Positions 11,163 through 49,900 of a DNA stretch of 64,000 bases are shown here, in pieces (the stretch's first letter is position 1; each line of letters starts with the position of its first letter). A program made the position numbers and the translations under genes. This DNA comes from Adhaeribacter aerolatus (GTDB taxonomy: Bacteria > Bacteroidota > Bacteroidia > Cytophagales > Hymenobacteraceae), in the NCBI RefSeq assembly GCF_007991635.1, contig NZ_BJYS01000008.1:124001-188000 (forward strand). Direction: 5' to 3'. The notes below the pieces were generated by a model. It did no database searches, had not been told where the DNA came from, and was given only the letters and a program-made list of their open reading frames with translations.

Positions 11163-11211
11163 AATAAAAAACAAAAAAGCTCCGGAAAAGACCAGTTGTC
11201 TATTCCAGAGC
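11163..11211 (-). terminator. Intrinsic terminator of the TonB-dependent receptor gene
   Basis: The hairpin at 11179-11211 has paired segments GCTC/GAGC, GGAA/TTCC and AGAC/GTCT around a CAGTT loop. On the minus strand it is followed by TTTTTTGTTTTTTATTG, a strong U-tract, about 100 bp after the receptor stop codon. T-runs on both sides make it potentially bidirectional. Confidence 0.75.
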
Positions 11212-11314
11212 AATTTTTTTAAACTTTTTAGGTCCAGCTTAAAAGTAGCAGCTACTTTGTTTTGAAATATAGCTTCTATACAAATATTGGCCGGTGCTAA
11301 CTTTTAGGCCTTTT

Positions 11315-13777: not shown

Positions 13778-13914
13778 AATTATCAGGTGGATAACGCGTT
13801 GATGCCGGTTTATAAATAATCGTTCTATCGGCAAATTACAAACCGATTTACAGAAATTAACTATATAAGTTAAAATATTCCCGAAATCAAGTGTTAAATA
13901 GAGTTAGTTAATGT

Positions 13915-14212
13915 TTATCTTTTGAAAGATTTCATCTTTCAATGCGAAGGTGCTAACTGTTAGCTAATTCCTAAGTTGGCTCAAGGCCGCGCGGCCCCGT
14001 TTGGTCATTCGGGCTGTCTAAGCTTGTTTTCCTCATACCTCGGAATGCTAAAGCACCACAACCTTAGAAGGTCCTCTTCGCCCAAACTGCTGTAGTCTGC
14101 TTCGTAGTTGCTGCCTATCTGCTGGCAGCAAAAACTTACTCTATTCGTTGGCACTAGCGACCAGAATGGCCCGGCTCCCCTCCTTTTTTCAAGGAGGGGT
14201 TCGGGGGTGGTT
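13915..14212 (+). repeat. Long intergenic repeat, copy A
   Basis: First of three copies of an unannotated ~300-bp element (others 18535-18860, same orientation, and 45124-45470, inverted). It starts with a 9-bp hairpin, TTGAAAGAT/ATCTTTCAA, at 13922-13942. The most conserved block, including CCCCGTTTGGTCATTCGG, is at 13985-14016. A second conserved block beginning CCCAAACTGCTGTAG lies at 14079-14114. The right end is a hairpin, CCCCTCCTT/AAGGAGGGG, at 14177-14199 followed by a G-rich tail. No frame stays open in all copies, so it looks non-coding. Confidence 0.8.
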
Positions 14213-14256
14213 CCTTTTGTTTATTGTAATGCGCTCAGCCTTTAAATTTTCAAATA

Positions 14257-16755
14257 TTAATCAAACTTCTTGGCAAGCATTTTCATGAAATAACCGCCTA
14301 CTACGCTGCGGGCCTGGAAACCGACTTGGCGGCCGTTGGTCGTTTCGTGCCAGTCGCTGAGCGGAACGCGGCTGGTGGTTTCGGTGGTAAATTTATACAC
14401 TGGGTTTACCAGGGCCTCAAAGTCTTGCTGGTTGCGGGTAAAGGTAGCCGTCCAGATTATCCAGTCTGATTTGGTGTAGGTTTTGCGGCTGTCGAGGGGC
14501 AAGCCGAAGGGTTGTTGTTTGGTGAGGTAATATTTAATTTCCTTTTCGTAAACTTCTTTCGGGAATAAATTTAAATCGAGTACCTCATCCCATACTAAAT
14601 TATACTTCTGGCTCCAGGTATTTTTGTCGTTAAAAGTTAAAGCATAATGGTCGCCGGTATCGGCTAATTGCATCCACTTTTTGGTCATAGCGGCGGCCAT
14701 TTTGTTGTATTTTTTGGCAGTAGCTTTTTCTTTTAACATACCGGCCAGCATGCCGTAACACCGCAGCCCCACAATAGCTTTTATAGATAAATTGGCGTTA
14801 CGGGCCAAATGGCCGGCAAAATCATCGGTCGATAACTGGCTGGCGGGGTCGAAACCTTCTTTGCTTAAATATTCGGCCCAGGTAGTTAAAGTAGCCCAGT
14901 GCTTTTTGGCGTAGTCGGCGTTGCCTTCGGCTTTGGCAATGGCAGCCGTTAAAATGAGCATGTTACCGGATTCTTCTACGGGCATGTCTTCGCCGTAAGT
15001 TTGCCCGTTGGCCAGCGGGTAAGTACCTAAATCGTGGGCCGCAAAAGGCTTTTGCCATTTACCGCTTTCGCTGTAGTAAAAAATACCGTTCAGCATACCT
15101 TTTAATAAATCGGGATTGTACAACAAGAACAAAGGCGCCGAAGGATAGGTTACATCTACGGTGTTGATAGAGCCGTTGCTGAAGTTTTCTTTCGATAAAA
15201 ACAATATTTCGCCGGTTGGGCTTTTTACCAGTTTGTGAGCCGCTATGCTTTGGCGGTAACCGGCTACACACAACTGAGCGTAATTTTCACCCCCGGCAGC
15301 TTTCGCATCGGCGTACATTTTTTTATCGAAAGCATTACACTGCTCTATAACTTTTTGGTAATCAGCGGCAGCCTGGGCAAATTGACTCTCGATGGTAGTA
15401 CCTGGTTTATCGCGCCACCAGGGCCGGAGGTTTTGCCCGAAATATTGCACGGCGTAGATGTCGTCGTAGCCCACCATTACGAAGTTTTGCTGCACCGTTT
15501 TACCAACTTTACTTAAAGGCAGCACGGTGTTCAACATCAGGTTACGGCCGGTTTGCGTAGCGGCCCCAGAAGCTTTAGTATTATTGGCAAAATTAGCTAC
15601 CGCTTCTTCGGCCGCTGATATAGTTTGGGTAGCTTTAGCCGTAGTTGGTGCTGCCACGTACACATAGCCCCAATCGATGCGTATATCGTCGCCTTTTTTC
15701 TGCAAGATGGGCTGCGCCGTGGTGCCGGCCTGCAAAATATTTAAATTACTGGCGGTGTAGGCTTTGGCACTTACCTCCTGAGCTGGGGTATTTACCGCTA
15801 AATTTGTAGAAGTTCCAAAATAAAGCTGCGCTTCGTGGGTGGCTTCGTCGCGGGCATTCACTGCAAACGATACGTAAGAAACCGGTCGGGCCAGCAAATC
15901 TAAATTATTTAACAGCAGCGGCGAAGTAAAGGTGAGGTTTAAATCCAAAGGGCCACAGGCAAACTGGTAAACAGTTTGGGTAGGCGTAACAGTTACACTT
16001 TTCTGAACCGCCGGGATAACGGCCACTTTTTTCTCTTCTTCCACTTCCGTTACCAGACCGGCATCGAGCCAGGCGCCACCGGCGGTATTGGCTATATGCA
16101 GGGCCAGCACGTTCTTGCCTTTTTTCAGTTTCTGGCGGATACCATCTGCAACCGGTATGTATTTAAACTTATGCACCCAGCCGGTAAAGTCGTAAATTTT
16201 CTCACCGTTCAAGTAAACTTCGATATTATCGTCGTGATTTAGTTTGAGGAACAGTTTATTAAAATCTACTTTATCCAGGTTAAAAGTACGACGCACCCAC
16301 AGGTTTTTACTTTCCCAAAGGGTTTTAGGCTTTTGCCCTTTATCGCCGAAACGCGCGGCGCCGGTTTGCCAGTTTTTATCATCAAAACCGGGCTGCAACC
16401 ACCTGGCATCGGGCTGCGATTCGGTATATTTCACTTCGTAATCTTGCTCGTCCGAAGCCGGTAGCACGGTTTTATAAACTTCTTCTTCCTGACCCAGGAA
16501 AGAATATATTTTGCCGTCTACTTTCAGCAACCCCAGCAGCGAGTGGTTTACATTGGTCCAGTGCCGGGTAGTGCTGGCATTGAGTTCATCGGTGTAAGAC
16601 CAAATGCTGAAATAAGGGTCGTGGGTAATTAAGGGGTAAGCTGGCGCCCGCTTTAATTGGGCCTGGGCGAATTGCCCGATAAATAACAAGAAAGCCAGCG
16701 CGGCAATATTTCTAAAACTTAAGCCGCCTGGCCAATTTTTAAATTTAGTAAGCAT
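14257..16755 (-). CDS. DUF4964/DUF5127/DUF4965/DUF1793 (glutaminase GtaA-like) exported protein
   Basis: An 832-residue secreted protein with a signal peptide ending in FAQAQ (about residue 32). Immediately after it, LKRAPAYPLITHDPYFSIWSY is the DUF4964 signature; residues about 90-215 form an inserted galactose-binding-like sandwich (LFLKLNHDDNIEVYLNGEKIYDF is split here across that fold); DUF5127 follows to about 480, then DUF4965 and the DUF1793 helical barrel to the C-terminus (NGRQVGFQARSVVGGYFMK). The family contains fungal glutaminase A, but Bacteroidota members are repeatedly placed in carbohydrate loci, and an (alpha/alpha)6 barrel suggests glycan chemistry. Here it is 118 bp after the GH125 gene, so a role in the same glycan breakdown is inferred; the reaction is unknown. 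Confidence 0.88.
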   Translation of the reverse strand: MLTKFKNWPGGLSFRNIAALAFLLFIGQFAQAQLKRAPAYPLITHDPYFSIWSYTDELNASTTRHWTNVNHSLLGLLKVDGKIYSFLGQEEEVYKTVLPASDEQDYEVKYTESQPDARWLQPGFDDKNWQTGAARFGDKGQKPKTLWESKNLWVRRTFNLDKVDFNKLFLKLNHDDNIEVYLNGEKIYDFTGWVHKFKYIPVADGIRQKLKKGKNVLALHIANTAGGAWLDAGLVTEVEEEKKVAVIPAVQKSVTVTPTQTVYQFACGPLDLNLTFTSPLLLNNLDLLARPVSYVSFAVNARDEATHEAQLYFGTSTNLAVNTPAQEVSAKAYTASNLNILQAGTTAQPILQKKGDDIRIDWGYVYVAAPTTAKATQTISAAEEAVANFANNTKASGAATQTGRNLMLNTVLPLSKVGKTVQQNFVMVGYDDIYAVQYFGQNLRPWWRDKPGTTIESQFAQAAADYQKVIEQCNAFDKKMYADAKAAGGENYAQLCVAGYRQSIAAHKLVKSPTGEILFLSKENFSNGSINTVDVTYPSAPLFLLYNPDLLKGMLNGIFYYSESGKWQKPFAAHDLGTYPLANGQTYGEDMPVEESGNMLILTAAIAKAEGNADYAKKHWATLTTWAEYLSKEGFDPASQLSTDDFAGHLARNANLSIKAIVGLRCYGMLAGMLKEKATAKKYNKMAAAMTKKWMQLADTGDHYALTFNDKNTWSQKYNLVWDEVLDLNLFPKEVYEKEIKYYLTKQQPFGLPLDSRKTYTKSDWIIWTATFTRNQQDFEALVNPVYKFTTETTSRVPLSDWHETTNGRQVGFQARSVVGGYFMKMLAKKFD

Positions 16756-16873
16756 TTTAACTTTAAATATTCAAATGGTAGCTAGTGAATTTGATATACT
16801 GATTAAGGTTTGCCGGCGCCGCAACCAAAATGGCCACAACACCGGCTATAGAATATTATCAACCTGATTATTA

Positions 16874-18289
16874 TTAACCTAAGAGCTTCGGATCTTCCTG
16901 GTAGGTTTTCCAAAGCAGTTCCCCAAACAAAGTGTTGGCCCAGGCAAACCACGAGCGGGTAAACTTCTTTGGGTCGTCTTTATGGAAAGCCTCGTGCATA
17001 AAACCAGTGTCGCCGTGCGTACCTTTTAAGGCTTGAATACAGTTTTTAATTTCCTGGGGGTCGTTACTGGTGAGGGCGCGCATGGTAATGCTCATGGGCC
17101 AAATCATATCCTGCCCCACGTGCGGACCGCCAATACCTTCTCCGGCCGAGCCTTTAAAAAAGAAGGGATTATTTTGGGAAAGTAAAAATTTTCGCGTGTT
17201 CAAGTAAACCACATCCGTTGCCGAAACGGCGCCTAAATAAGGCAGAGATAATAAGCTGGGCACGTTGGCATCATCCATTAAATAAGCGCTGCCAAAACCA
17301 TCTACTTCGTAGGCGTATATTTTACCGTATTTGGGATGGTTCACCACGGCGTGTTCTTGTAAGGCTTTTTCTACCTCAGTGGCCAGGGCCAGCAGTTCTC
17401 CGGCAGTGGCTTTGTCCTGGGCAATTTTTTCTAGCATGGTGGCTGCTTGCCTTAAACTTACCACCGCAAAAAAGTTAGACGGAATTAAAAAAGAATACAC
17501 CGTGGCATCGTCGCTGGGCCGGAACGAGGAGCAGATTAAACCAACCGGGTTTACCGGGTAGCCGTAGCCGCTCATGGGCAAGGTATCGGTAGCGTGCGGC
17601 GTGGTACGCTGGAATTTATAAGGGCCTTTATTTTCCTTGCGCTGTTGCTCCCGGAAAGTTTTAAGCGTAGTTTTAATAGCTTGTTGCCATTGGCTATCAA
17701 AAGGTTTGGTATCGTTGGTGGTTTGCCAGTAGTGGTAAGCCAGCCGGATGGGGTAACACAGCGAATCTATCTCCCACTTCCGCTCGTGTACGCCGGGCTG
17801 CATCTTGGTTAAGTCTTTGCTCCACTCCCCTACTTTGGTATCGTCGCCGTAAAAAGCGTTGGCGTACGGGTCTTTGATTACGCAGCGGGTTTGGCGGTTA
17901 ATTACTCCGGCTACCAACTGCCGGAGCGGCTCATCTTTTTTCAGAAATTTTAAATACGGCCACACCTGCGCCGAACTGTCGCGCAACCACATGGCATCAA
18001 TATCGCCGGTTATTACATAGGTATCAGGTTTGCCGTCTTTTACGGTGTGGGTAACAGTGGTATCGAGGGTGCTCGGGAAGCAGTTTTCGAACAACCAAGC
18101 CAATTCTTTATCTTTTACTTTCTTTTTAAATTCTGAAATAGCACTTTCAACGGATTTGCTGCTGAAATTACGCTTGGCAGCGGGTACGCGCACCACCGGA
18201 ATATCGGGTGCGGCAGTTAATGTTAAGGGATTTAGGTAGGCGCCGGCACCTAGTAAGGCGGCGCTTTGGATAAAGGTTCTTCTTTTCAT
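16874..18289 (-). CDS. Tat-exported GH125 family protein (exo-alpha-1,6-mannosidase)
   Basis: Predicted to remove terminal alpha-1,6-linked mannose, the known activity of GH125 enzymes from Clostridium perfringens and Bacteroides. The 471-residue protein has a twin-arginine signal, MKRRTFIQSAALLGAGAYL. The family hallmarks are present: DAMWLRDSSAQVWPYL (about residues 96-111), SGYGYPVNPVGLICSSFRPSDD in the middle, DDANVPSLLSLPYLG, and SAGEGIGGPHVGQDMIWPMS in the C-terminal third. Length matches the family. It precedes the DUF4965 gene on the same strand, and this two-gene unit is bracketed by direct copies of a long repeat. Confidence 0.92.
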   Translation of the reverse strand: MKRRTFIQSAALLGAGAYLNPLTLTAAPDIPVVRVPAAKRNFSSKSVESAISEFKKKVKDKELAWLFENCFPSTLDTTVTHTVKDGKPDTYVITGDIDAMWLRDSSAQVWPYLKFLKKDEPLRQLVAGVINRQTRCVIKDPYANAFYGDDTKVGEWSKDLTKMQPGVHERKWEIDSLCYPIRLAYHYWQTTNDTKPFDSQWQQAIKTTLKTFREQQRKENKGPYKFQRTTPHATDTLPMSGYGYPVNPVGLICSSFRPSDDATVYSFLIPSNFFAVVSLRQAATMLEKIAQDKATAGELLALATEVEKALQEHAVVNHPKYGKIYAYEVDGFGSAYLMDDANVPSLLSLPYLGAVSATDVVYLNTRKFLLSQNNPFFFKGSAGEGIGGPHVGQDMIWPMSITMRALTSNDPQEIKNCIQALKGTHGDTGFMHEAFHKDDPKKFTRSWFAWANTLFGELLWKTYQEDPKLLG

Positions 18290-18534
18290 TCTAAATTAAT
18301 AATTAGGCCTACAAAACTTAGTACTCCTGTTGCAGTGCTTTTGCACCTGCTTTCTAGATAGTATAAATCATGCTACAGCCTGATAAAAATTGTATAAAAG
18401 TCTTGGGAGTAAACAAATATTCAGCTGTTCTTCTACTTTGGTTAATTAACACGAAAAGTAGAAAGAATAAGAGGAAAATAAAATTTTAAGCAGATTGAAG
18501 TGGTTTGAGTTGGGCAAATATTGCCTGATGTTTT

Positions 18535-18860
18535 AACCTTTGAAAGATTTCATCTTTCAATGTGAAGGTGCTAACTAATATTTAAAGACTAAGTTTGCTC
18601 ACGGCCGCGAGGCCCCGTTTGGTCATTCGGGCTGCTCATCTTTCCTTTCCTCCTTCGTCGGAATGCCTCGTACCTCGGCACCGGAAACCTGAAAGGCCCT
18701 CATCGCCCAAACTGCTGTAGTCTGCTTCGTAGCTGCTGCTATTCTACCTTTAACCAAATATTAAATATTTAATACGGCCTATTCTATAATCTTCAGGCTG
18801 CGCTTAACTGTTAGCCCGGCTCCCCGCCTAAGTTTAGGAGGGGTAGGGGGTGGTTGTTTT
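18535..18860 (+). repeat. Long intergenic repeat, copy B
   Basis: Same orientation as copy A. The left hairpin TTGAAAGAT/ATCTTTCAA is at 18540-18560, the strongly conserved core with CCCCGTTTGGTCATTCGG at 18603-18634, and the block starting CCCAAACTGCTGTAG at about 18707-18735. The right end again has a C-rich/G-rich hairpin (CCCCGCCTAA, then TTAGGAGGGG) at about 18822-18843. The right-hand hairpin differs in sequence from copy A but keeps the ability to pair. Confidence 0.8.
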
Positions 18861-18880
18861 TAGCTATATTTTCCTATACA

Positions 18881-18965
18881 GGACTTTCGCAAATTGGTCG
18901 TTTATTTCTTTAAACTTCCCCCACCCCCTCCAAAGGGGGACTTTTAAATAGTTTTACGAAAGTTC
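18881..18965. repeat. Nested inverted element
   Basis: Outer imperfect arms GGACTTTCGCAAA (18881-18893) and TTTTACGAAAGTTC (18952-18965) match at 11 of 14 paired positions. Inside is a C-run/G-run hairpin, CCCCC at 18924-18928 against GGGGG at 18935-18939. An 18-nt stretch, 18927-18944, recurs exactly as its reverse complement at 30567-30584. Confidence 0.65.
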
Positions 18966-19037
18966 TACTATAAATAATACCGAACTCTATACCTTTTTTA
19001 ATCAACCAAAGCAAAATCTAAATGCTCGCTTTAAATA

Positions 19038-20090
19038 TTAACGGCTGCCTACTTCTTTGGCTTGAAATTGCAGGAAATAAAAGCTTTTTTCGTCAGCTAC
19101 TAATTTATCCGTTCCGGTTGCTTTATCTTTTTCAAACCGGATATTTACAATAGCAGTTTTACGAGGGCCTACTTTCGTAGCTGAGAAATGGGTGTGCAAC
19201 ACGTAAGTTAGATTCCCTTTTTTATCTTTTACAAAATCGCCGTGACCGGTGCCATTTTGGCCTAGATTGTTTCTGCTAATAATGGGGTTGCCGGTGTATT
19301 TTTCCCAGGGCCCGTAAGGGCTTTTACTGACGGCGTAGCCCACCGCATAATCGGGGTTCCGGAAATCGTTGGTGGAATAAACAAAATAATAAAGGTTTTT
19401 ATGTTTCAGGATAGAGGGGCCTTCCGCTACGGGCCAAGGTGCCTTGGCGGTATTTTCCCAGGGCTCCACGGCGGTAAGGCATTCTTTCAGGGTTTCGGGT
19501 TTAATGGCGCTCAGGTCGTCGGTCATTTCGGCTACAAAAAGCCGGTTGCCTTGGTTTAGGCGCACATGGTACAAATATTTGCGACCATCGTCGTCTATAA
19601 ACACAAACGGATCTATTTGCTTTACAGGGGCAGTTAAAGGCTGCTTTTTTGTTTGCGTAAATGGACCTAGCGGACTGCTGCTGGTGGCAATAGCAATTTG
19701 CTCGTTGGCGGTATAAGCCATGTAAAACTGATTGCGGTAATAAAATACCTGCGGCGCCCAGAAACCTTGCTCGCCAAAAGCATCACCTTTCCGGAGAGCA
19801 TAACCCGCGTTAACTCCTATCGGTCCTGCCCAGCTTTTTAAATCCCGGGAGGTATATACGGTGAAACCCAGGTTGGCATTGGCTCCGCCAGTACCGTACA
19901 AATAATATTGGCCTTTGTGGTAAAATATAGTCGGATCGGCCAGGTAAATATCGCTTGAGGTGTTATCGGTTTTTACCTGGGCCCAAGTCGCCTGCCCGGA
20001 ACAGCAAAGGATAAAGAATAGCCAAATAAAAAATTGCAGGTATTTTAATCCTGCTGAAGAACACGACTTAGCAAAAATATTAATTGTCAT
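19038..20090 (-). CDS. Exported GH43-type glycoside hydrolase
   Basis: A 350-residue five-bladed beta-propeller glycosidase. The signal peptide is carried by residues about 15-38 (hydrophobic YLQFFIWLFFILCC, then ATWAQ); C29 or C30 could alternatively make it a lipoprotein, although no clear lipobox is seen. The three GH43 acidic residues are in place: D52 (base, in LADPTIFYH), D160 (pKa modulator, in QIDPFVF) and E223 (acid, in VAEGPSI). Known activities in the family are alpha-L-arabinofuranosidase, beta-xylosidase and exo-galactosidase; the locus context with GH125 does not identify which. It lies in the same orientation between the phosphoesterases and GH125. Confidence 0.88.
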   Translation of the reverse strand: MTINIFAKSCSSAGLKYLQFFIWLFFILCCSGQATWAQVKTDNTSSDIYLADPTIFYHKGQYYLYGTGGANANLGFTVYTSRDLKSWAGPIGVNAGYALRKGDAFGEQGFWAPQVFYYRNQFYMAYTANEQIAIATSSSPLGPFTQTKKQPLTAPVKQIDPFVFIDDDGRKYLYHVRLNQGNRLFVAEMTDDLSAIKPETLKECLTAVEPWENTAKAPWPVAEGPSILKHKNLYYFVYSTNDFRNPDYAVGYAVSKSPYGPWEKYTGNPIISRNNLGQNGTGHGDFVKDKKGNLTYVLHTHFSATKVGPRKTAIVNIRFEKDKATGTDKLVADEKSFYFLQFQAKEVGSR

Positions 20091-20336
20091 TTATAGCAGG
20101 AATTAGGTCAATAGCTGTTAAAGCCATACAAATATATTCCTTTCCCAGAATAGATAATGACGATCTAAAAGGTTTACTGCTTGCCCGCTCTCCCTAATTT
20201 GACTCGGCTAGCCGGAGACGTAAAAAAATTAATAAAATACCAGGAACCCTGCTCCGGTAAAGAATATTTTAGGCTACTAAATAAAAGGCGTAATTAAATC
20301 AGAGACCTGAACTGAATTTATTTTACTCCTATTTGT

Positions 20337-20396
20337 AAGAAGTCGAAGACTTCTTTTTTATTTAAAGTTTGTAGTCTCCTTCGGAAGGCTACAAAC
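20337..20396 (+). repeat. Two adjacent palindromic hairpins
   Basis: AAGAAGTC/GACTTCTT around GAA at 20337-20355 is followed by TTTTA on the plus strand, like a short terminator, although both flanking genes are on the minus strand. Eleven bp on, 20367-20396 has GTTTGTAG/CTACAAAC arms around CCTT-CGG-AAGG. The second looks like a dispersed intergenic palindrome. The remainder of the 382-bp spacer 20091-20472 shows no gene. Confidence 0.6.
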
Positions 20397-20472
20397 AACA
20401 GGGACGACATAAAGCAGCGGAAATTATCCACCGTAAAACAACAATTCAGATTAAATAACTGCTGCTTAACCC

Positions 20473-21696
20473 TTAAACAAACTTTTTCTTGATGGTGTAT
20501 TTTCCTACCTCTTCTCCATCGTCGCGGATCATTTTGAGGTTCAGTTCTTTTTTAGTGGCGTGTAATTTTATCAGCGTTCTTTTGCCCTCCAGCGGCCCGC
20601 CCCCAATTACAATGGGGTAGTTATGAGTAGCATCGGCATCGTGGGTGGCATACCGGTGTGTATGGCCCGAAAGCATTAAATCTATTTTGCCTTTGTTGAA
20701 CAATGGCCCGAAAAGTTGGCGGCAGTGCAGGGTGCCGTGCCAGTCGCCGGAATGATAAGGAGAAATATGAATCAGCACTACCCGGAAAGCTGCTTTTTTA
20801 AACACTTCGGATTCTATTTCTTTTTCTAACCATTTCTGCTGCACTTCGCGGTACTCGTCAAAAGCTGCCAGCCCGTTGTATTCCCAGTTATCATCGGTTT
20901 TATCTTCGCCGGAGTCCAGTATAACAAAGTGTACGGGTCCGCGCGTAAACGAATAATAATATTTATCGGTCGGGTAAGTAAAATAATCGGGTAGCTGTCG
21001 GGCAAAGCTGCCCCGCACCTCGTGGTTGCCTTGCACAAAAATAAAAGGCACTTCTTTCGAAAACACCTCGGTGCAAGGTTTAAGCAAATGATCGATTACC
21101 TGCTCTTCGCTATCCACGTGGTCGAAACAATCGCCGTTTAAAACCACAAAATCGAAATCGGGATTATTGCCGGTGTAACCGTGCTTGTACAAGAGCTGCG
21201 GAATAGTTTGGGGCCGATCGTGGATGTCGTTTAAGATTACCATTTTAAACGCCTCTTCGTCAACAGCCGGCGTTTTAAAGCTATAAATTATGCTTTGCAG
21301 CGGCTGGCCATACTCCACTTTAGAAGCCTGAAAATGCAGTATTTCTTTCGAATTGATGCGGTATTTGTATTCGGAGCCGGGTTTTAAGTTTTTAATCGTA
21401 ACTTTATTAATGCGGTTATTAGCTTGGATCAGGCCATTTCGGGCAGTATAAGCCTTTAGGCTCAGGTAGGTTCCGGCCCCGTATTCTACCCAGCTTAGGC
21501 TGTTGTTGTTCGTAATCCAAACAATGGTTACCTCATTGGGCATCAGGTTCTGCAAATAAGGACCCGCTATAAAGGCAATTTTGTCGTTGGTTTTATTTAT
21601 GCCAGCGAGGGCTGTGCTCCAGGTCGGTAAAGCCAGGGTACCCAGCGCACCTATTTTAGACAGCTTTTGAATAAATAATCTTCGGTTAAAAGGCAT
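20473..21696 (-). CDS. Exported calcineurin-like phosphoesterase, paralogue 1
   Basis: Predicted 407-residue metallophosphoesterase with a twin-arginine-like signal (NRRLFIQKLSKIGALGTLAL). An N-terminal fibronectin/purple-acid-phosphatase-type domain (GPYLQNLMPNEVTIVWITNN, residues about 44-140) precedes the catalytic domain. The dinuclear metal motifs are complete: LNDIHDR (D-x-H), NGDCFDH (G-D-x-x-D), GNHEVRG, HISPYHSGDWHG and SGHTHRY. The substrate may be a phosphomonoester or phosphodiester. It follows its paralogue with a 19-bp gap, so the two are almost certainly co-transcribed and come from a duplication. In a locus with GH125, removal of phosphate from glycans is a reasonable inference. 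Confidence 0.9.
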   Translation of the reverse strand: MPFNRRLFIQKLSKIGALGTLALPTWSTALAGINKTNDKIAFIAGPYLQNLMPNEVTIVWITNNNSLSWVEYGAGTYLSLKAYTARNGLIQANNRINKVTIKNLKPGSEYKYRINSKEILHFQASKVEYGQPLQSIIYSFKTPAVDEEAFKMVILNDIHDRPQTIPQLLYKHGYTGNNPDFDFVVLNGDCFDHVDSEEQVIDHLLKPCTEVFSKEVPFIFVQGNHEVRGSFARQLPDYFTYPTDKYYYSFTRGPVHFVILDSGEDKTDDNWEYNGLAAFDEYREVQQKWLEKEIESEVFKKAAFRVVLIHISPYHSGDWHGTLHCRQLFGPLFNKGKIDLMLSGHTHRYATHDADATHNYPIVIGGGPLEGKRTLIKLHATKKELNLKMIRDDGEEVGKYTIKKKFV

Positions 21697-21715
21697 CTCG
21701 GGAATTCTTCTAGAA

Positions 21716-22933
21716 TTAAATTTTAATATTTCCTACCGGATTACCGGTATCTCCAATCATTTCCAAGGCAAAAGCATTTTGGTCGGCTTTTACCCGGATG
21801 ATGGTACGGGCGCCTTCTTTGGGGCCGCCGCCAATTACAATGGGGTAATTATGCTGTCCGGCTACCGGTGGGTGAATGCCGTACCGGTGGGTGTGCCCGG
21901 AAATTAAAAGGTCGACTTTGGCCTGATTTAAAATTGGTCCGAATACTTCGCGGCAATGCAGCGTGCCGTGCCCCTCGCCCGAATAATAAAAAGGAATATG
22001 ACTGAAAACTATTTTGTATTTGGCCTTCTTAAAAGCTTTTTTCTGAACTTCTTTCTTCAGCCACTCAACTTGTTTCAACCGGTATTTATCAAAATCGACT
22101 AAGCCGTAATATTCTTTATCACCGTCCTTTTTATCTTCCCCGGAATCGAGCACAATGGCATATACCGGTCCATGCTGAAAAGAGAAATAATATTTCTGCT
22201 CCCGGTTATTAAAATAATTGGCTAAGTGGCGGGCAAATTTGCCGCGGGTTTCGTGGTTACCACGCGATAAAATAAAAGGCGTAGTGGTAGAAAATAACTG
22301 GCTCAGGGGGTGCAGCAAATGATTCACCAGTTGGTCTTCGTCGGTCTGGTAATCGAACATATCGCCGTTCAGGAAAACAAAATCTTTTTTGTCTTCGCCG
22401 CCATACTGCATTAAATGCGCAAAGGATTTCGGCCGGTCGTGTATATCGTTAAACACCAGAAACGAAACGCTATCGGCCTGAAGACTGGGGGTTTGAAATG
22501 AAAATGACTCACTCACGAAAGTATCTCCGTAGGTTACCTGGTAAGGTTTAAACTCTTCGATAACTTTTGAGTTAATGCGGTAATAATATTTATGACCCGG
22601 GGTAAGTCCGGTTAGCGTAATGCCGTGCACCGTATTATAGGCCTGAATCAATCCATCATCTACAGCCACTTCTCTCTTGTCTAAATTATCGGGGCTTTGG
22701 CCGTAATCTACCCAACTGTAACAAGGCACCTGGGTGAGCCAGCGCACCGTCATCTGGTTCGGCAGCGCCGATTGCAGATAGGGTTGGGTTTTAATAATGG
22801 GTGAATCGGGTAAAGGTGTATCTTTTACTGTTGCAGCCCCCAGCGAAGGTACCGGACATAAGCCGGCCAACCCTAGTACCCCTAGCGATGAAATAAATTT
22901 GCGGCGGTTTATATCATTAGATAAATCTTCCAT
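21716..22933 (-). CDS. Exported calcineurin-like phosphoesterase, paralogue 2
   Basis: A 405-residue protein if the ATG at 22933 is used, which puts a twin-arginine-like signal (NDINRRKFISSLGVLGLAGL) at the N-terminus; the upstream ATG at 22990 would precede it with an implausible basic extension. It has the same plan as its downstream neighbour: an N-terminal beta-sandwich (TQPYLQSALPNQMTVRWL) and a metallophosphatase domain with FNDIHDRP, NGDMFDY, GNHETRG, SHIPFYYSGEGHG and SGHTHRYG. All expected metal ligands are present in both copies, so neither seems inactivated. Divergence across the N-terminal domains suggests different substrates or surface placement. Confidence 0.9.
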   Translation of the reverse strand: MEDLSNDINRRKFISSLGVLGLAGLCPVPSLGAATVKDTPLPDSPIIKTQPYLQSALPNQMTVRWLTQVPCYSWVDYGQSPDNLDKREVAVDDGLIQAYNTVHGITLTGLTPGHKYYYRINSKVIEEFKPYQVTYGDTFVSESFSFQTPSLQADSVSFLVFNDIHDRPKSFAHLMQYGGEDKKDFVFLNGDMFDYQTDEDQLVNHLLHPLSQLFSTTTPFILSRGNHETRGKFARHLANYFNNREQKYYFSFQHGPVYAIVLDSGEDKKDGDKEYYGLVDFDKYRLKQVEWLKKEVQKKAFKKAKYKIVFSHIPFYYSGEGHGTLHCREVFGPILNQAKVDLLISGHTHRYGIHPPVAGQHNYPIVIGGGPKEGARTIIRVKADQNAFALEMIGDTGNPVGNIKI

Positions 22934-30566: not shown

Positions 30567-30600
30567 AAAGTCCCCCTTTGGAGGCGGTAAGGGGGAGGAT
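30567..30600. repeat. C/G-rich palindrome shared with 18.9 kb
   Basis: AAAGTCCCCCTTTGGAGG at 30567-30584 is the exact reverse complement of 18927-18944, and GGGGGAGG follows at 30591-30598. It sits just after the sigma gene stop. Confidence 0.6.
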
Positions 30601-44102: not shown

Positions 44103-44858
44103 ATGATTGCCCGCACTATTGATGAAGTTATCAGCGCCCTGGAAGAAATCATTCAGGATTGTATCCGTACCAACAACCGGGCCGGCTATTTTGCCATGGT
44201 TTATTACTGCACCACCCTGCGCGTAAAAAAAGATATTCTGCTGAACAACTTTGAAGATGGCCCGCGTATGGAACGGTTTGATGTGCTGTTTGCCAATTAT
44301 TACCTGCGGGCCTGGCACCAGTGGCAGGCGGGCAAGCCCACCGCTGCCGCCTGGGAAATTGTTTTTGAAACCGCTGCCCACCTGCCGGCTGTTTTAATGC
44401 AGCATTTGCTGCTGGGCATGAACGCCCACATTAACCTGGATTTAGGCACAACCGCTGTAGAAACCATGCGCGACGGTCGGCTCCCGGACATCCGCCGGGA
44501 TTTTAACAGCATTAATACTATTCTGGGGGCCATGATAGACAAGGTGCAGGAAAATATTGGCCGGGTATCGCCGCTGATGGGTTTACTGGATTTGCACGCC
44601 CGCAACCGCGACGAATTATTGGTGCAGTTTAGCATTAACCTGGCCCGCGATGGTGCCTGGCGTTTTGCCGAAGACCTGCATGATAAAGTTGGCGCTGATT
44701 ACCAAACCTGCCTTGCCGCCCGCGATAACTGCATTGCCCAATTAGGTAAAAACCTGGCCAGCCCCAGGGGCTTCCTTCTGAAATATACCTTAAAGGCCAT
44801 CCGGGCTACCGAAAGATTAGCGCCCGGCGAAATCATAAATATCCTCAAAGTAATATAA
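44103..44858 (+). CDS. DUF5995 family protein
   Basis: A 251-residue, mainly helical, soluble protein. The family blocks are visible: RAGYFAMVYYCTTLRVKKDI (about residues 27-46), RFDVLFANYYLRAWHQW, then HLPAVLMQHLLLGMNAHINLD and SINLARDGAWRFAEDL. The motif ...LGMNAHINLDL with its conserved histidine suggests a metal-containing helical bundle. No enzyme activity is established for the family. It starts at the ATG at 44103, the only one ahead of the conserved region. Confidence 0.85.
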   Translation: MIARTIDEVISALEEIIQDCIRTNNRAGYFAMVYYCTTLRVKKDILLNNFEDGPRMERFDVLFANYYLRAWHQWQAGKPTAAAWEIVFETAAHLPAVLMQHLLLGMNAHINLDLGTTAVETMRDGRLPDIRRDFNSINTILGAMIDKVQENIGRVSPLMGLLDLHARNRDELLVQFSINLARDGAWRFAEDLHDKVGADYQTCLAARDNCIAQLGKNLASPRGFLLKYTLKAIRATERLAPGEIINILKVI

Positions 44859-45521
44859 CCGGACTTTCGCCTTTAGATAACCGTGCCTTTGCATATAAAT
44901 AAATCACCAATGCTAAACCGGGTAGTGCTGCTTAATGATCAAGTAACACAGCGGGATAATAACATAATAAATTTTAGGCTTAGTTTGATATAATTTCAAC
45001 TCCAATAAATATTATGCCAAAGAATGTACCCTTAAAGTGTAAGTTTAGCTTAAGGTTATATTCATTAATCAAATTTTAATTATTTTTCACGCTTATTATA
45101 TAGTTTAGTTTTTACTTGGTTGGAGGGCTTACCATTTCTCCAGCTTTCTTAACCCTTCCGCCCTCCGGGCACCTTCCCTGAATCAGGGAAGGAGTTCGGC
45201 CAAACCTAAACATTATGGAAAAGCTTTGTTGCGGAGGATTATTATTTAATAATGGTTGAGCTAAGAAGGCAGCAGCTATAAGCTACTGACAGCAGTTTGG
45301 ACAGCGAGGGCCTTTCAGCTTTCCGGTGCTTTAGCATTGCGAGGTACGAGCAAAGGAAAGATGAGCAGCCCGAATGACCAAACGGGGCCCGCCGGCCCAG
45401 AGGCGTCTTAGACCTACAAATACAGTTAGCACTAACCATTGAAAGATGGAATCTTTCAAAAGATAAACAGATAAAACATCAAATCATTTAGTGAATATAA
45501 GTAGGTGAGCTGATATATATA
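44859..45521. other. 663-bp intergenic region holding repeat copy C
   Basis: The spacer lies between the DUF5995 stop and the outer-membrane factor stop. Its first 260 bp are AT-rich with no gene seen; the rest is the inverted third copy of the long repeat. A 65-codon minus-strand frame inside the repeat is not kept in the other copies and is not treated as a gene. Confidence 0.7.
45124..45470 (-). repeat. Long intergenic repeat, copy C (inverted)
   Basis: Reverse-complement copy of the element at 13915 and 18535. The hairpin TTGAAAGAT/ATCTTTCAA is at 45439-45459, the conserved core (rc of CCCCGTTTGGTCATTCGG) at 45366-45397, the CCAAACTGCTGT block at about 45268-45301. The terminal hairpin here reads CCTTCCCTGA against TCAGGGAAGG at 45171-45192: different bases from copies A and B, with pairing kept. 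Confidence 0.75.
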
Positions 45522-46913
45522 TTACCGCCAGCCACCGCCCAAAGAACGGTATAAATTTACCACCGACTGCAATTGTTGTAACCGGTCGTTTACACTACCC
45601 AACTCGGCCTGCAATAGACTCTGGCGGGCCGTAATTACTTCTACATAACTCGAAAATCCGTAGCGTACGAGTTCCTGCGAATAACTAACCGATTTTTGCA
45701 GGGCCGCCATTTGGTTGGTACGCACTTGTATTTTTTGCAGGGCCGTTTGGTGTAACGATAAGGCATCCGATACTTCCCGTCCGGCATTTAATAAAGTATT
45801 CTGAAAGTCTAAGGCCGCTTCCTGCTGCTGGGCACGGGCTACTTCCAGACGGGTGCGGTTCAGGCGTCTGTTAAGAATAGGCTGGGTTAGGCCAGCCCCG
45901 ACACTAATCGCCAAAGAACCCGGATCGAGGAGATTGGTTAAGGCCAGCGCCGATAAGCCCGACGACCCTGTTATAGTTACAGCAGGATAAAAACTGGCGC
46001 GGGCCACGTTCGTTAGTTCGAAGAAATACCGGTAGTTCAGTTCTGCTTGCTGCACATCGGGCCGGTTAGCTAATAACTGCGCTGGTACACCGGTTTGTAA
46101 GGTGGGCGGCATAGTCTGGTTATCTAAACGGCCCCGCGCAATTGCGGACGGCGGACCTCCGAGTAAAATACTTAGCGCATTTTCTATTTCGCGGATGTCT
46201 TGTTTCAGGTCCGGAATGGTTACTTCGGCGGCATAGCGCTGGGCTTCGCTTTGCACCACGGCGGCTTCGGTTACCCGCGCCGAATATTTTAAAGCCCGCA
46301 TGGTTTGCACGGTGGTATCCCAGTTTACTACCGTAAGTTCGGTAATGGCAACCTGCTGATCCAGGGCCATGAGTAATAAATAATAATTGGCTATATCGGC
46401 TACTAAATTGGTCTGCACGGCCCGCGCGCCGGCCTCCGACCGCAATAAACTAGCCAGGCTGGCCCGGCGGTTGCTGCGTAAACGCCCCCAAACATCAATT
46501 TCCCAGCCGGAGGATATACCTAGCTGATACTGTGTAATATTACCTTGTTGCCGAAAATCCTGTACTTCGGGGAGCCGGGACCGAGTAGCTCCGGCGTTGG
46601 CGTTTAAAGTAGGAAAAAAGGCCGCGCCACTTTGCCGGTAGTATGCCTGCGCTTGTTGGATGCGGGTATACGCCACTTGCAAATCCAAGTTCCGGGCAAT
46701 GCCTGCGCTTATTAACCGCTGCAAGGTAGTATCGGTAAATAGTTCTTTCCAGTGCAAACTGCCAAGCGAAGCGGTATCGGCAGTGGTTACGTCCCGGAAT
46801 AAATTTGTGGTGCGAGCGGGCGGAGTCTGGTAAGGCTGCGTCAGGCGGCAAGAGGCCAATAATAGCCCCGTCAGGAATATTAAAAGCAGGTGCCTCAGCA
46901 TATTTCTGTTCAT
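45522..46913 (-). CDS. RND efflux outer-membrane lipoprotein (TolC/NodT/CusC family)
   Basis: A 463-residue outer-membrane channel. The ATG at 46913 begins MNRNMLRHLLLIFLTGLLLASC and gives a lipoprotein signal with lipidated C22; the upstream start at 46982 would overlap the pump gene and add a basic tail. Two OEP repeats are visible: LRSNRRASLASLLRSEAGARAVQTNLVADIANYYLLL and NRTRLEVARAQQQEAALDFQNTLLNAGREVSDAL (both shortened here by listing their ends), followed by QELVRYGFSSYVEVITARQSLL. It is the last gene of an adaptor-pump-channel operon, 49 bp after the pump stop. Confidence 0.92.
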   Translation of the reverse strand: MNRNMLRHLLLIFLTGLLLASCRLTQPYQTPPARTTNLFRDVTTADTASLGSLHWKELFTDTTLQRLISAGIARNLDLQVAYTRIQQAQAYYRQSGAAFFPTLNANAGATRSRLPEVQDFRQQGNITQYQLGISSGWEIDVWGRLRSNRRASLASLLRSEAGARAVQTNLVADIANYYLLLMALDQQVAITELTVVNWDTTVQTMRALKYSARVTEAAVVQSEAQRYAAEVTIPDLKQDIREIENALSILLGGPPSAIARGRLDNQTMPPTLQTGVPAQLLANRPDVQQAELNYRYFFELTNVARASFYPAVTITGSSGLSALALTNLLDPGSLAISVGAGLTQPILNRRLNRTRLEVARAQQQEAALDFQNTLLNAGREVSDALSLHQTALQKIQVRTNQMAALQKSVSYSQELVRYGFSSYVEVITARQSLLQAELGSVNDRLQQLQSVVNLYRSLGGGWR

Positions 46914-46962
46914 AGTATATTCTTTAAACCGCAACCGCCGTTTTTTAGCCTGCTTGCCCCGC

Positions 46963-49900
46963 TTAAGATTCCTGGTCCGCATTAACTTTTTGGGTTAAAG
47001 GTTCTTTACGCTTACCACTGATGCGTTCCTGCAAACCCTGGAAAACAACATACAAAACCGGAATTACAAATATTCCTAATAGGGTACCAATGAGCATACC
47101 CCCTACCGCACCCGTACCAATAGACCGGTTTCCAGTTGCTCCCGCCCCCGTAGACAACATTAATGGCACCAGACCCAGAATAAAAGCAAAAGAAGTCATT
47201 AAGATGGGTCTTAAACGGGCTTCAGCCCCTTCCAATGCTGCCTGTACCAGCGGCATACCGTGTCGCCGGCGCTCCGCCGCAAATTCCACAATCAGGATAG
47301 CGTTTTTGGCCAGCAACCCAATCAGCATTATCAGGGTGATTTGTAAATAAATATTGTTGGTGATACCAAAAAAAGTGGCAAAAATAAAAGTACCGGCCAA
47401 GCCAATGGGCAGCGACAGCAAAACGGCAAACGGCAGAATATAGCTCTCGTACTGGGCGCTCAGCAGCAGGTAAACAAATAAAATTACCAGCACGAAAATA
47501 AATCCGGTTTGGCCGCCGGCCGAAATTTCTTCGCGGGTCATGCCCGAAAATTCGTAGCCGTACCCCACCGGTAAAACCTGCGCCGCTGTTTCTTCTATGG
47601 CCGTAATGGCATCGCCAGAACTAAAACCGGCATTCGGCGAACCGGTAACCCCGATAGAAGTAAAAAGATTAAACCGCGAAATAGCCTGCGGCCCGTATAC
47701 CCGTTCGAGGGTAATAAATTCGGTAATGGGTGCCATAGTACCGTTGGCATTCCGGACGAAAACATTACTCAGGCCTTCGGGGTTGGCGCGGAAAGCAGGT
47801 TCGGCCTGGTACATCACCCGGAACTGCTTGCCAAACTGGTTAAAATTGGAGGCATACACCCCGCCGTAGTAGCCTTGCATGGTACTCAGAATATCGTTCA
47901 CCGATAAACCGGCTACTTTGGCTTTGGCTACATTTACATCTATTTGGTACTGCGGAAAATTTACGTTAAAAGAAGTAGAGGCAAACTGAATTTCGGGCCG
48001 CTCGTTTAAGGCCGCTATTAAATCATTGCCAATTTTAGAAAAGGTAGCAATATCGCGCCCGCTCCGATCCTGCAACTGAAACTCGAAACCACCCGAGGTA
48101 CCAAAACCCGAAATGGTGGGCGGCGCAAAAAATATTATTTTGGCATCGCGGATGCCACTGGTTTTGGCAAATAATTTACCGATAATGGATTGGACATCCT
48201 GTCCTTCTCCTCGCTGGTCCCAGGGCTTTAGCTTCATTACCATCATGCCGTAATTACTACCCACGCCGCTAATCATGCCCCGCCCCGATATTCTGAGGAT
48301 ATTTTGGATTTCGGGTATGGTACGGGCAATGGCTTCTACTTCTTTCGTAATTACTTCGGTTCTTTCGTTCGAGGCCGAAACCGGCAAGGCAATATCGGCC
48401 ATGATGGCTCCCATATCTTCGTTGGGCACAAAGGTGGAAGGCGTGGTTCGTATCAGAAAATAAAACAAGCCGGCGAATACGGCCAGTATAGCCCAGGCCA
48501 GCCATTTGCGCCCCACCAGGTAAGCCACCGAGTTTTTGTATTTATTTGTGGTTTTATCAAAAGTACGGTTGAACCAGCCGTAAAAACGCTGGAGCAAATT
48601 CTTCTTTTTATGCTCTTCCTGATGCGGCTTTAAAAACACGGCACACAACGCCGGACTTAGGGTTAAAGCATTTACCGCCGACAAAATAATGGCAATGGCC
48701 AGGGTTAAGCCGAATTGCTTGTAAAATACGCCGGCGGAACCCTGAATAAAACTTACCGGCACAAATACCGCTGCCATTACCAGGGTAATGGAAATAATTG
48801 CCCCGGTAATTTCGCTCATCGCGTCCTGGGTTGCTTTTAGGGCCGACGTATAGCCCTGGTCGAGTTTAGCATGAACGGCTTCTACCACCACAATGGCATC
48901 GTCTACCACAATACCAATAGCCAGCACCAAAGCAAATAAGGTGAGCAGGTTTATGGTGAAGCCAAATAGAAGCAGGAAGAAAAACGTACCCACAATGGCC
49001 ACCGGTACCGCAATCGCCGGAATAAGCGTAGACCGAAAATCCTGCAGGAAAATAAATACTACCAGGAAAACGAGTATAAAGGCCTCGATAAGCGTATTAA
49101 TTACTTTGGAGATAGAGGCATCTAAAAAATCGTTGGCGTTAACCAGGGTAACGTATTTAATACCCTGCGGAAACGTTTTAGAAGCATTTTCAAGTACCTG
49201 TAAACTGCCCTCAATAACTTCTTTGGCGTTGGAACCGGCCGTTTGGCTGATGGCCACCCCCACCGAAGGATTTCCGTTGGTAGTAGTGCTGCTGGCATAA
49301 CTCATGGCGCCCAGTTCAATGCGAGCAATATCTTTTAACCGCAATATTTGGCCGTTTTCGGTAGCCTTTACCACTACATCCTCAAACTCCGAAGCATCTT
49401 TCAGGCGGCCGGTATATTTTATAACGTACTGAAACGACTGCATGCCCTGTTCGCCAAATTGCCCGGGGGCGGCTTCAATATTTTGTTCAGCCAAAGCAGC
49501 ACTGATATCGGCCGGCACGAGTTTGTAGGTAGCCATTACATCCGGCTTCAGCCAAATTCGCATCGAATAATCCATCCGGCCGAAAGCATTGGCTTCCCCC
49601 ACCCCCGAAACCCGTTTTATTAAAGGTACCAGGTTTATTTCGGCGTAGTTCTGCAAAAAGGTTTGGTCATAGGCTGGGTTTTCGCTGTACAACGAAAAAA
49701 TAACCAGGTTGCTGCTCTGGCTTTTGGCCGTAGTAACGCCCGAGCGGGTTACTTCCTGGGGCAACAGCGGCGTGGCCCGCGCTACCCGGTTTTGTACATT
49801 TACCGAGGCTAAGTCGGGATTGGTACCTAACAAAAAGTTAATTACGATGCGGGCAGTGCCGTCGTTACCGGCAGAAGACGTCATATAGGTCATGCCTTCT

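Follow-up and report, generated by a model that had tools for sequence, protein, structure and literature searches.

ERIC, BOX and bcr1 are small dispersed repeats, HEARO and omega-RNAs are ORF-less structured RNAs present in many copies, and eukaryotic SINEs are structured RNAs that spread in trans while their copies decay. To our knowledge, the dispersed bacterial repeats described so far are either simple hairpins or transposon relics. According to one account (PMC3733652), REPs are palindromes of 20–40 bp, most of them tagged GTAG or CGTC, and four accounts (PMC3733652, PMC3116915, PMC2817692, PMC8450116) present REP, BIME and REPIN elements as dispersed, intergenic and non-coding.

The window analysed here is a stretch of 64,000 nucleotides from Adhaeribacter aerolatus (Hymenobacteraceae; genome G000, 6.68 Mb). 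A sequence-only reading had claimed three copies of an undescribed structured repeat in it, and all three are present as members of the same large, non-coding, structured repeat family: copy A (45151–45466, plus strand), a full-type element, and the core-type copies B (13915–14199) and C (18533–18843), both on the minus strand. In a repeat comparison within the window, 13914–14114 and 18532–18739 matched at 82–85%, and 45289–45469 paired inversely with both at 75–97%. At E<=10, the general model R2 matched the window three times and no more, at 18592–18717 (minus), 45290–45408 (plus) and 13974–14092 (minus), with E values from 5e-26 to 9e-24. Copy A lies between the convergent genes 44103–44858 (plus) and 45522–46982 (minus), and copies B and C each lie between minus-strand genes. 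The claimed lack of a reading frame held for copy A: the stretch 44859–45521 is free of ORFs of 80 aa or more, and a protein gene is rejected there on this ground.

Copy A can be divided into three parts, all on the plus strand. A 5' domain (45151–45206), common to 24 aligned full-type copies of A. aerolatus, carries the hairpin CCTTCCCTGAATCAGGGAAGG at 45172–45192 and is followed by a linker (45207–45267) that varies among the same aligned copies. The core of about 200 nt (45268–45466) is delimited by the alignment A1 and the model R1 and folds with z = -3.1. Its most conserved domain (45290–45408; R2 107 bits, E 4.7e-24) holds the stems P1, P2 and P3, the hairpins a and b, P4 and the pseudoknot P5, with the P4 hairpin GGCC-CGCC-GGCC and its P5 pseudoknot with GGC at 45386–45404. 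The core also carries the 3' hairpin TTGAAAGAT-GGA-ATCTTTCAA (45439–45459), which has no T run on its 3' side. On the minus strand, the core of copy B spans 13915–14115 (conserved domain 13974–14092, 3' hairpin 13922–13942, R2 105.9 bits) and that of copy C spans 18533–18740 (conserved domain 18592–18717, 3' hairpin 18540–18560, R2 115.3 bits); the hairpin at these three 3' positions, TTGAAAGATnnnATCTTTCAA, is found in all three copies. Energy folding of single copies was clear for A alone, with z values of -3.1 (A), -0.85 (B) and -1.45 (C).

The divergent hairpins at the other end lie at 45172–45192 in A, 14177–14199 in B and about 18822–18843 in C, and the sequence-only reading took their differing but still pairing bases for compensating change. 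This claim failed. B and C have REP-like hairpins (AACCACCCC..CCCCTCC..GGAGGGG), while that of A belongs to the 5' domain; they are different parts, so the three-way comparison gives no evidence of covariation. The REP-like hairpin 5' of copy B (14177–14199, minus) reads CCCCTCCTT/AAGGAGGGG, and hairpins like it also occur upstream of several core-type copies. That of copy C (18822–18843, minus), CCCCTCCTAA/TTAGGCGGGG, has by eye a counterpart at the orthologous position of A. rhizoryzae. Two further REP-like hairpins, CCCCCACCCCCTCCAAAGGGGGACTTT, stand without a core at 18918–18944 and 30567–30593 of the window and resemble those upstream of B and C.

The search for further copies with a covariance-type model, a check that the same reading had proposed, found many of them. 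With copy A as the query, blastn gave 47 matches in the A. aerolatus genome, 41 of them at 96 bits or more (40 of 71 candidates scored). Forty cores were cut from the blastn matches and 39 were aligned as A1; L018, with a divergent 3' end, was left aside, as was L026/L039, which has an internal deletion. R1, a model of the core built from A. aerolatus copies, scored 150 of 1812 candidates in this genome and gave 54 matches at E<=0.01, of which 50 reached E<=2.5e-13. Dozens of matches by both methods indicate a repeat family rather than chance. R1 gave 109 matches in the Adhaeribacter genome G003 and 62 in A. rhizoryzae (G001) at E<=1e-5. R2 gave 116 in genome G022 and 46 in G025. In each of these genomes, 150 candidates were scored. 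Two architectures were seen in A. aerolatus: 24 full-type copies consist of the 5' domain with its hairpin (CCTTCCCTgAATcAGGGAAGG), the linker and the core, and 16 core-type copies of the core alone, several of them with a separate REP-like hairpin about 100 nt upstream. In the core-type copies conservation fades shortly past the 3' hairpin. The 20 best-scoring elements of G022 and of G025 are likewise long and have 5' hairpins of their own.

By eye, the loop-closing pair of the 5'-domain hairpin was G-C in 11, A-T in 10 and broken in 3 of the 24 full-type copies. In A. rhizoryzae, the same hairpin as in copy A serves an IS as its landing site. This IS (DDE_Tnp_1 transposase, PF01609, E 3e-6) is inserted at the hairpin CCCTAAATTAGGG, at the identical point of at least 13 distinct repeat copies and in both orientations (L102-L110, L113, L114/L139, L115, L153, L303, L306). 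The junctions on its other side (L303, L306) end in the identical 13 nt, which fits a 13-bp target duplication of the 5'-domain hairpin, seen on one side per insertion.

The structure was derived by inspection of 35 diverse copies (alignment A4) and consists of P1-P2-P3, two hairpins (a and b), an H-type pseudoknot (P4/P5), in which the P4 loop pairs with sequence 3' of P4 to form P5, and the 3' hairpin. In A4, 90.6% of the cells were paired, compared with 73.4% after shuffling; both sides had changed in 27 of 35 pairs (19.4 shuffled), 202 cells were doubly changed (71.6 shuffled), and the covariation score was 0.450 (0.173 shuffled). None of 500 shuffles attained any of the observed pairing or covariation values. 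Slid controls scored 0.065–0.133, a lenient comparison since the structure had been fitted to the same sequences. P2 occurs among members as GGGC/GCCC, GCGC/GCGC and GCAC/GTGC, and P4 as GGCC/GGCC, GTCC/GGAC and AGCC/GGCT; two pairs of P4 and two of P5 had changed on both sides in the 35 copies. In hairpin b, a constant G-A/A-G step was seen by eye between pairs that flip from G-C to C-G and back.

Within A. aerolatus alone (A1, 39 copies), 95.2% of the cells were paired compared with 90.0% shuffled, the score was 0.149 compared with 0.076, and 74 cells were doubly changed compared with 24.8. Double changes fell on 9 pairs (6.7 shuffled; 23 of 500 shuffles equally high), and further pair types showed no excess over the shuffles (24 vs 23.7). 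In the 3' hairpin, 99.1% of the cells were paired in the 39 copies, and no pair had changed on both sides. Thus, the selection on pairing that the sequence-only reading had argued from the end hairpins is borne out by covariation in a proper alignment, and this covariation is located in the core. G.T cells outnumbered A.C cells by 110:21 in A1, 71:20 in A4 and 90:8 in A6 (59 of the 60 G003 matches described below), indicating that one defined strand folds, as RNA or as single-stranded DNA. G.G cells were frequent too (32, 35 and 58, respectively).

Stem variants over all pairs of the structure were sorted by the number of copies carrying them. Private variants, found in one copy, mostly kept the pair in 9 of 33 cases in A. 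aerolatus (A1) and 13 of 28 in G003 (A6), 22 of 61 in total, whereas variants carried by at least four copies did so in 18 of 23 and 32 of 34 cases, 50 of 57 in total. Variants in two or three copies lay between (4 of 9 and 7 of 13), and the picture was the same when pairs less than 70% standard were dropped. Because stem variants are not independent, no P value is given. Singletons per column numbered 0.375 in stems vs 0.455 outside in A. aerolatus and 0.438 vs 0.581 in G003, and common variants in A. aerolatus were rarer in stems (0.261) than outside (0.701). Nine private stem changes kept the pair, compared with about 5.7 of 31 by chance. The contrast was absent from G022 and G025 among the 20 best-scoring copies of each, which are few and chosen by score; there, singletons were mostly paired in 4 of 6 and 2 of 6 cases, and shared variants in 13 of 21 and 4 of 6. 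In Adhaeribacter, new single-copy mutations thus look close to neutral, and the lineages that multiply look to be those that keep the fold. That private mutations break pairs and shared ones keep them in two Adhaeribacter genomes favours a mobile element over a regulator needed at its site, and a non-autonomous mobile element, one of the readings offered from the sequence, is what the data favour.

We therefore hold, with moderate confidence, that copies A, B and C are members of a non-autonomous mobile repeat of high copy number, the conserved part of which is a structured single strand and most likely an RNA. From the sequence we infer RNA rather than single-stranded DNA. The repeat transcript would fold into the structure above, a trans-acting protein of the host or of a mobile element may recognise the fold, and the fold, or its DNA, would then be copied into intergenic sites. 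Once inserted, a copy would do little or nothing by itself and decay, and exchange or replacement among copies could keep the family alike. The turnover at site B and among orthologous pairs (below) speaks for a mobile repeat. Counting against it, no recurrent helper gene, empty site or target-site duplication was found, the four Y1 loci lack the core, the contrast between private and shared variants is absent from the G022 and G025 sets, solo copies are biased in orientation, and some copies are old, as at site C and at the place shared by two species of genus g16 (all below or above).

The copies are mostly intergenic. Gene context was taken from simple ORF calling, by which 36 of the 40 A. 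aerolatus cores were classed; B and C were read separately, and two copies in L032 are unclassed. Between tandem genes, the core-type copies of A. aerolatus were co-oriented with the genes in 10 of 10 cases (8 classed copies plus B and C). For G003, 20 chosen pairs and 20 chosen solo loci were fetched, in which R2 confirmed two copies and one copy each (60 matches); of the chosen solos, 12 were co-oriented, none was opposite and 8 lay between convergent genes. In A. rhizoryzae, 5 copies were co-oriented, none opposite, 9 convergent and 1 divergent, and 6 had a neighbour outside the stretch. Divergent spots were rare: 1 of 36 in A. aerolatus, none of 20 G003 solos, 2 of 20 G003 pairs, none of 20 in G022 and 3 of 20 in G025. 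None of the solo core-type copies of A. aerolatus and G003 was antisense between tandem genes, and either insertion coupled to orientation or selection at the site is needed to account for this.

A rival reading is a cis-acting 3'-end RNA. Here the core would be part of the upstream gene's 3' untranslated region and would stop 3'-5' exonucleases or aid termination, with solo cores acting in one direction and head-to-head pairs serving convergent genes. The co-orientation of tandem-gene solos in both Adhaeribacter genomes (10/10 and 12/12), the scarcity of divergent spots, the position of 10 of the 20 chosen G003 head-to-head pairs between convergent genes, and a hairpin plus T run seen by eye after both copies in genome G437 all speak for it. 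However, the private mutations of the two Adhaeribacter genomes break stems nearly freely, which function site by site would prevent. The long elements with a 5' hairpin of their own are also little biased (co-oriented to opposite 4:5 for the full-type copies between tandem genes of A. aerolatus, 8:3 in G022 and 4:3 in G025), and the 3' hairpin of Adhaeribacter has no T run. We regard a cis-acting 3'-end RNA as possible, though on the whole unlikely.

Head-to-head arrangement is prominent in G003. All 19 pairs of neighbouring copies less than 500 bp apart were head-to-head among the 91 listed of 109 matched copies, and in ten aligned pairs the outer ends are inverted, TTCTTTGGAG...CTCCAAAGAA. 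Such terminal inverted repeats were clear in the G003 head-to-head pairs and were not found for solo copies. By eye, 3 of the 10 aligned pairs share one variant in the left arm as well as one in the right arm, which suggests that the pair often multiplies as a unit. In terms of a mobile repeat, the multiplying unit of G003 would then often consist of two cores set head to head. Rare head-to-head core pairs also occur at G000:C29:9770-10318, G000:C22:43350-44110 and G001:C1:289391-290124, and no head-to-head dimer was found among the listed places of G022 and G025. Nine of the 20 G003 solos (L194, L195, L198, L199, L203, L207, L208, L209, L211) run on into a second palindrome block (CCGGCTAAAGCCGG, GTAAAGTCnnnGACTTTAC, CAAGTTTGAAACTTGCGCCAG), forming a REP-like mosaic.

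These dimers, the strand-specific pairing and the REP-like hairpins that adjoin a number of copies are also what a giant REP/REPIN-like unit would offer, an element of single-stranded DNA that a HUH (Y1) transposase moves and whose fold acts as DNA rather than RNA. The A. aerolatus genome has four Y1 transposase matches, and the G003 solos show a weak two-arc strand bias: 39 of 53 fit two arcs by strand, and 22 of 500 shuffles were as high. But the core is absent from all four Y1 loci (about 3.2 kb each), so a Y1 helper with the same ends is rejected; G025 shows no strand bias among 39 listed positions (its value was reached by all 500 shuffles); and the fold, which is multibranched, pseudoknotted and rich in G.U pairs, does not resemble REP hairpins. 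An element of this kind is improbable in our judgement.

On their 5.97-Mb contig (G003:C3), most of the 53 G003 solos fall within 0.3–3.7 Mb, and around 2.6 Mb the strand they occupy tends to change. Lagging-strand insertion was considered as well; its signal is weak in G003 and absent in G025. At one of the Y1 loci (L042; G000:C3, 993-4196), the Y1 match lies in a 197-aa open frame amid the palindromes CGTAGAGCGCTACGC.. and GCCAATCTCTGATTGGC, some of which recur at the head-to-head pair in L032. This Y1 is likely a RAYT with its own REP family.

Other candidate helpers were sought around the copies. Among 121 loci, which held part of the copies and their flanks, no helper gene recurred within about 1.5 kb; the largest clusters of neighbouring genes span 5 loci and resemble common domain types, and the remaining recurrent neighbours are shared neighbourhoods and an IS. 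The helper transposase that the sequence-only reading had envisaged was thus found neither in these loci nor at the four Y1 loci. No TnpB domain (PF07282) turned up in any of 16 genomes, whereas the search was positive in 6 of 14 controls, and a TnpB guide RNA is rejected on this result. The IscB domain PF14239 was likewise found in 0 of 16, with all control genomes silent too. Rfam 15 (4227 families) gave no match in the window at the gathering threshold, and lax thresholds gave sub-gathering hits alone, none credible, for copy A and 15 loci. A known RNA family is rejected on this basis, and the description of the family as undescribed, dispersed and non-coding stands. A guide-RNA scaffold (omega-RNA or HEARO-like) that an RNA-guided nuclease system had left behind would share the constant scaffold, the pseudoknot, the 3' hairpin and the conservation that soon fades in core-type copies. 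Given the TnpB search and the lack of a credible Rfam match, we consider it highly improbable.

Copy A had no blastn match at E<=1e-3 in phage and plasmid collections, which leaves carriage by a phage or plasmid unsupported. The family was not found in the literature on Hymenobacteraceae repeats and noncoding RNAs, structured RNAs, REP and SINE-like repeats, a comparison that lies outside the 2017 list of 224 motifs.

R1 matched 22 of 59 genomes: A. aerolatus, the 7 other genomes of its genus, and 14 from g2, g3 and g6, which are genera of the same family. The 14 genomes from g4 and g5 and the 22 from other families gave no match. R2 matched 5 of 395 genomes sampled from the phylum and 36 of 390 sampled from the order, 28 of the latter in the own family (g1, g2, g3, g6) and 8 in other families; these two scans scored 9 candidates per genome, and absence there is weak evidence. 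At five loci in four genomes of other families, no gene type common to all neighbourhoods was found; by eye, L168 and L169 adjoin a gene resembling a Gfo/Idh-type oxidoreductase. Two species of genus g16 (G046, G583) carry, at L157 and L280, a minimal 106-nt version between the same two flanking genes and co-oriented with both, and this shared place looks like vertical inheritance.

The place kept in the two g16 species and the terminator-like end in G437 could also mark a trans-acting small RNA, present in multiple copies, with other genes as its targets. Yet the matches per genome range from one (G046 and G583, one R2 match each with 9 candidates scored) to more than 100, and this spread, together with the decay of single copies, does not fit a regulator. 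We rate such a small RNA as very unlikely.

Empty sites were sought by searching the region 11200–21800 of the window in six congeners, and no clean empty site or target-site duplication was found there. Site C is occupied in A. rhizoryzae, with a core 92% identical. Site B of that species lacks both the element and the gene next to it; a 39-nt match (77%, E 0.006), taken for a remnant, is all that is left, and it gave no definable insertion end. Between 33 A. rhizoryzae and 39 A. aerolatus copies, four orthologous pairs were called by shared neighbours. None of the four was a reciprocal best match (ranks 3/1, 3/29, 3/16 and 15/19), so in-place conservation of orthologous copies is unsupported; exchange between copies or their replacement would explain this.

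A more specific form of the mobile repeat is a bacterial analogue of SINEs, in which a pseudoknotted non-coding RNA would itself be the spreading unit, copied in trans into the 3' regions of genes in several Bacteroidota families. The copier might be a reverse transcriptase or another RNA-recognising enzyme, and the fold might be selected solely through multiplication. We put this forward tentatively, as a speculation that is more probably wrong than right.

Compared with known systems, we class the family as a dispersed non-autonomous repeat with an RNA fold of a complexity unusual among such repeats. According to the published accounts (PMC3733652, PMC3116915, PMC2817692, PMC8450116), REP, BIME and REPIN elements are, like this family, dispersed, intergenic and non-coding, with many units in opposite-orientation pairs; they also lie between convergent and tandem genes, have G.T in their stems and are targets of IS elements. 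As in REPs and REPINs, the copies here are intergenic, 3' of genes and found in inverted dimers, which are common in G003 and rare in A. aerolatus and A. rhizoryzae. The family is set apart from them by size and fold: its core of about 200 nt is branched and pseudoknotted, and its fold is conserved across families. In addition, a RAYT (Y1) gene is flanked by the same repeat in REP/REPIN systems, whereas none of the four Y1 loci here carries the core.

MITEs and small dispersed repeats (ERIC, RU, BOX, bcr1) are likewise short, ORF-less and present in dozens of copies, and the G003 head-to-head unit has inverted ends. Set against them, the covariation here is deep; an autonomous partner and a target duplication were not found (121 loci; six congeners). 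Neither an Rfam match nor TnpB (0 of 16 genomes) links the family to HEARO or omega-RNA. The repeat adds an RNA family missing from Rfam 15, as well as a landing pad for an IS. With SINEs it has in common a structured fold and decaying copies. A branched, pseudoknotted, covarying repeat with 46 to 116 matches per genome counted lets one ask whether SINE-like parasites at the RNA level exist in bacteria, a question underlain by the signature seen in two of the counted genomes, in which copies decay while lineages keep the fold.
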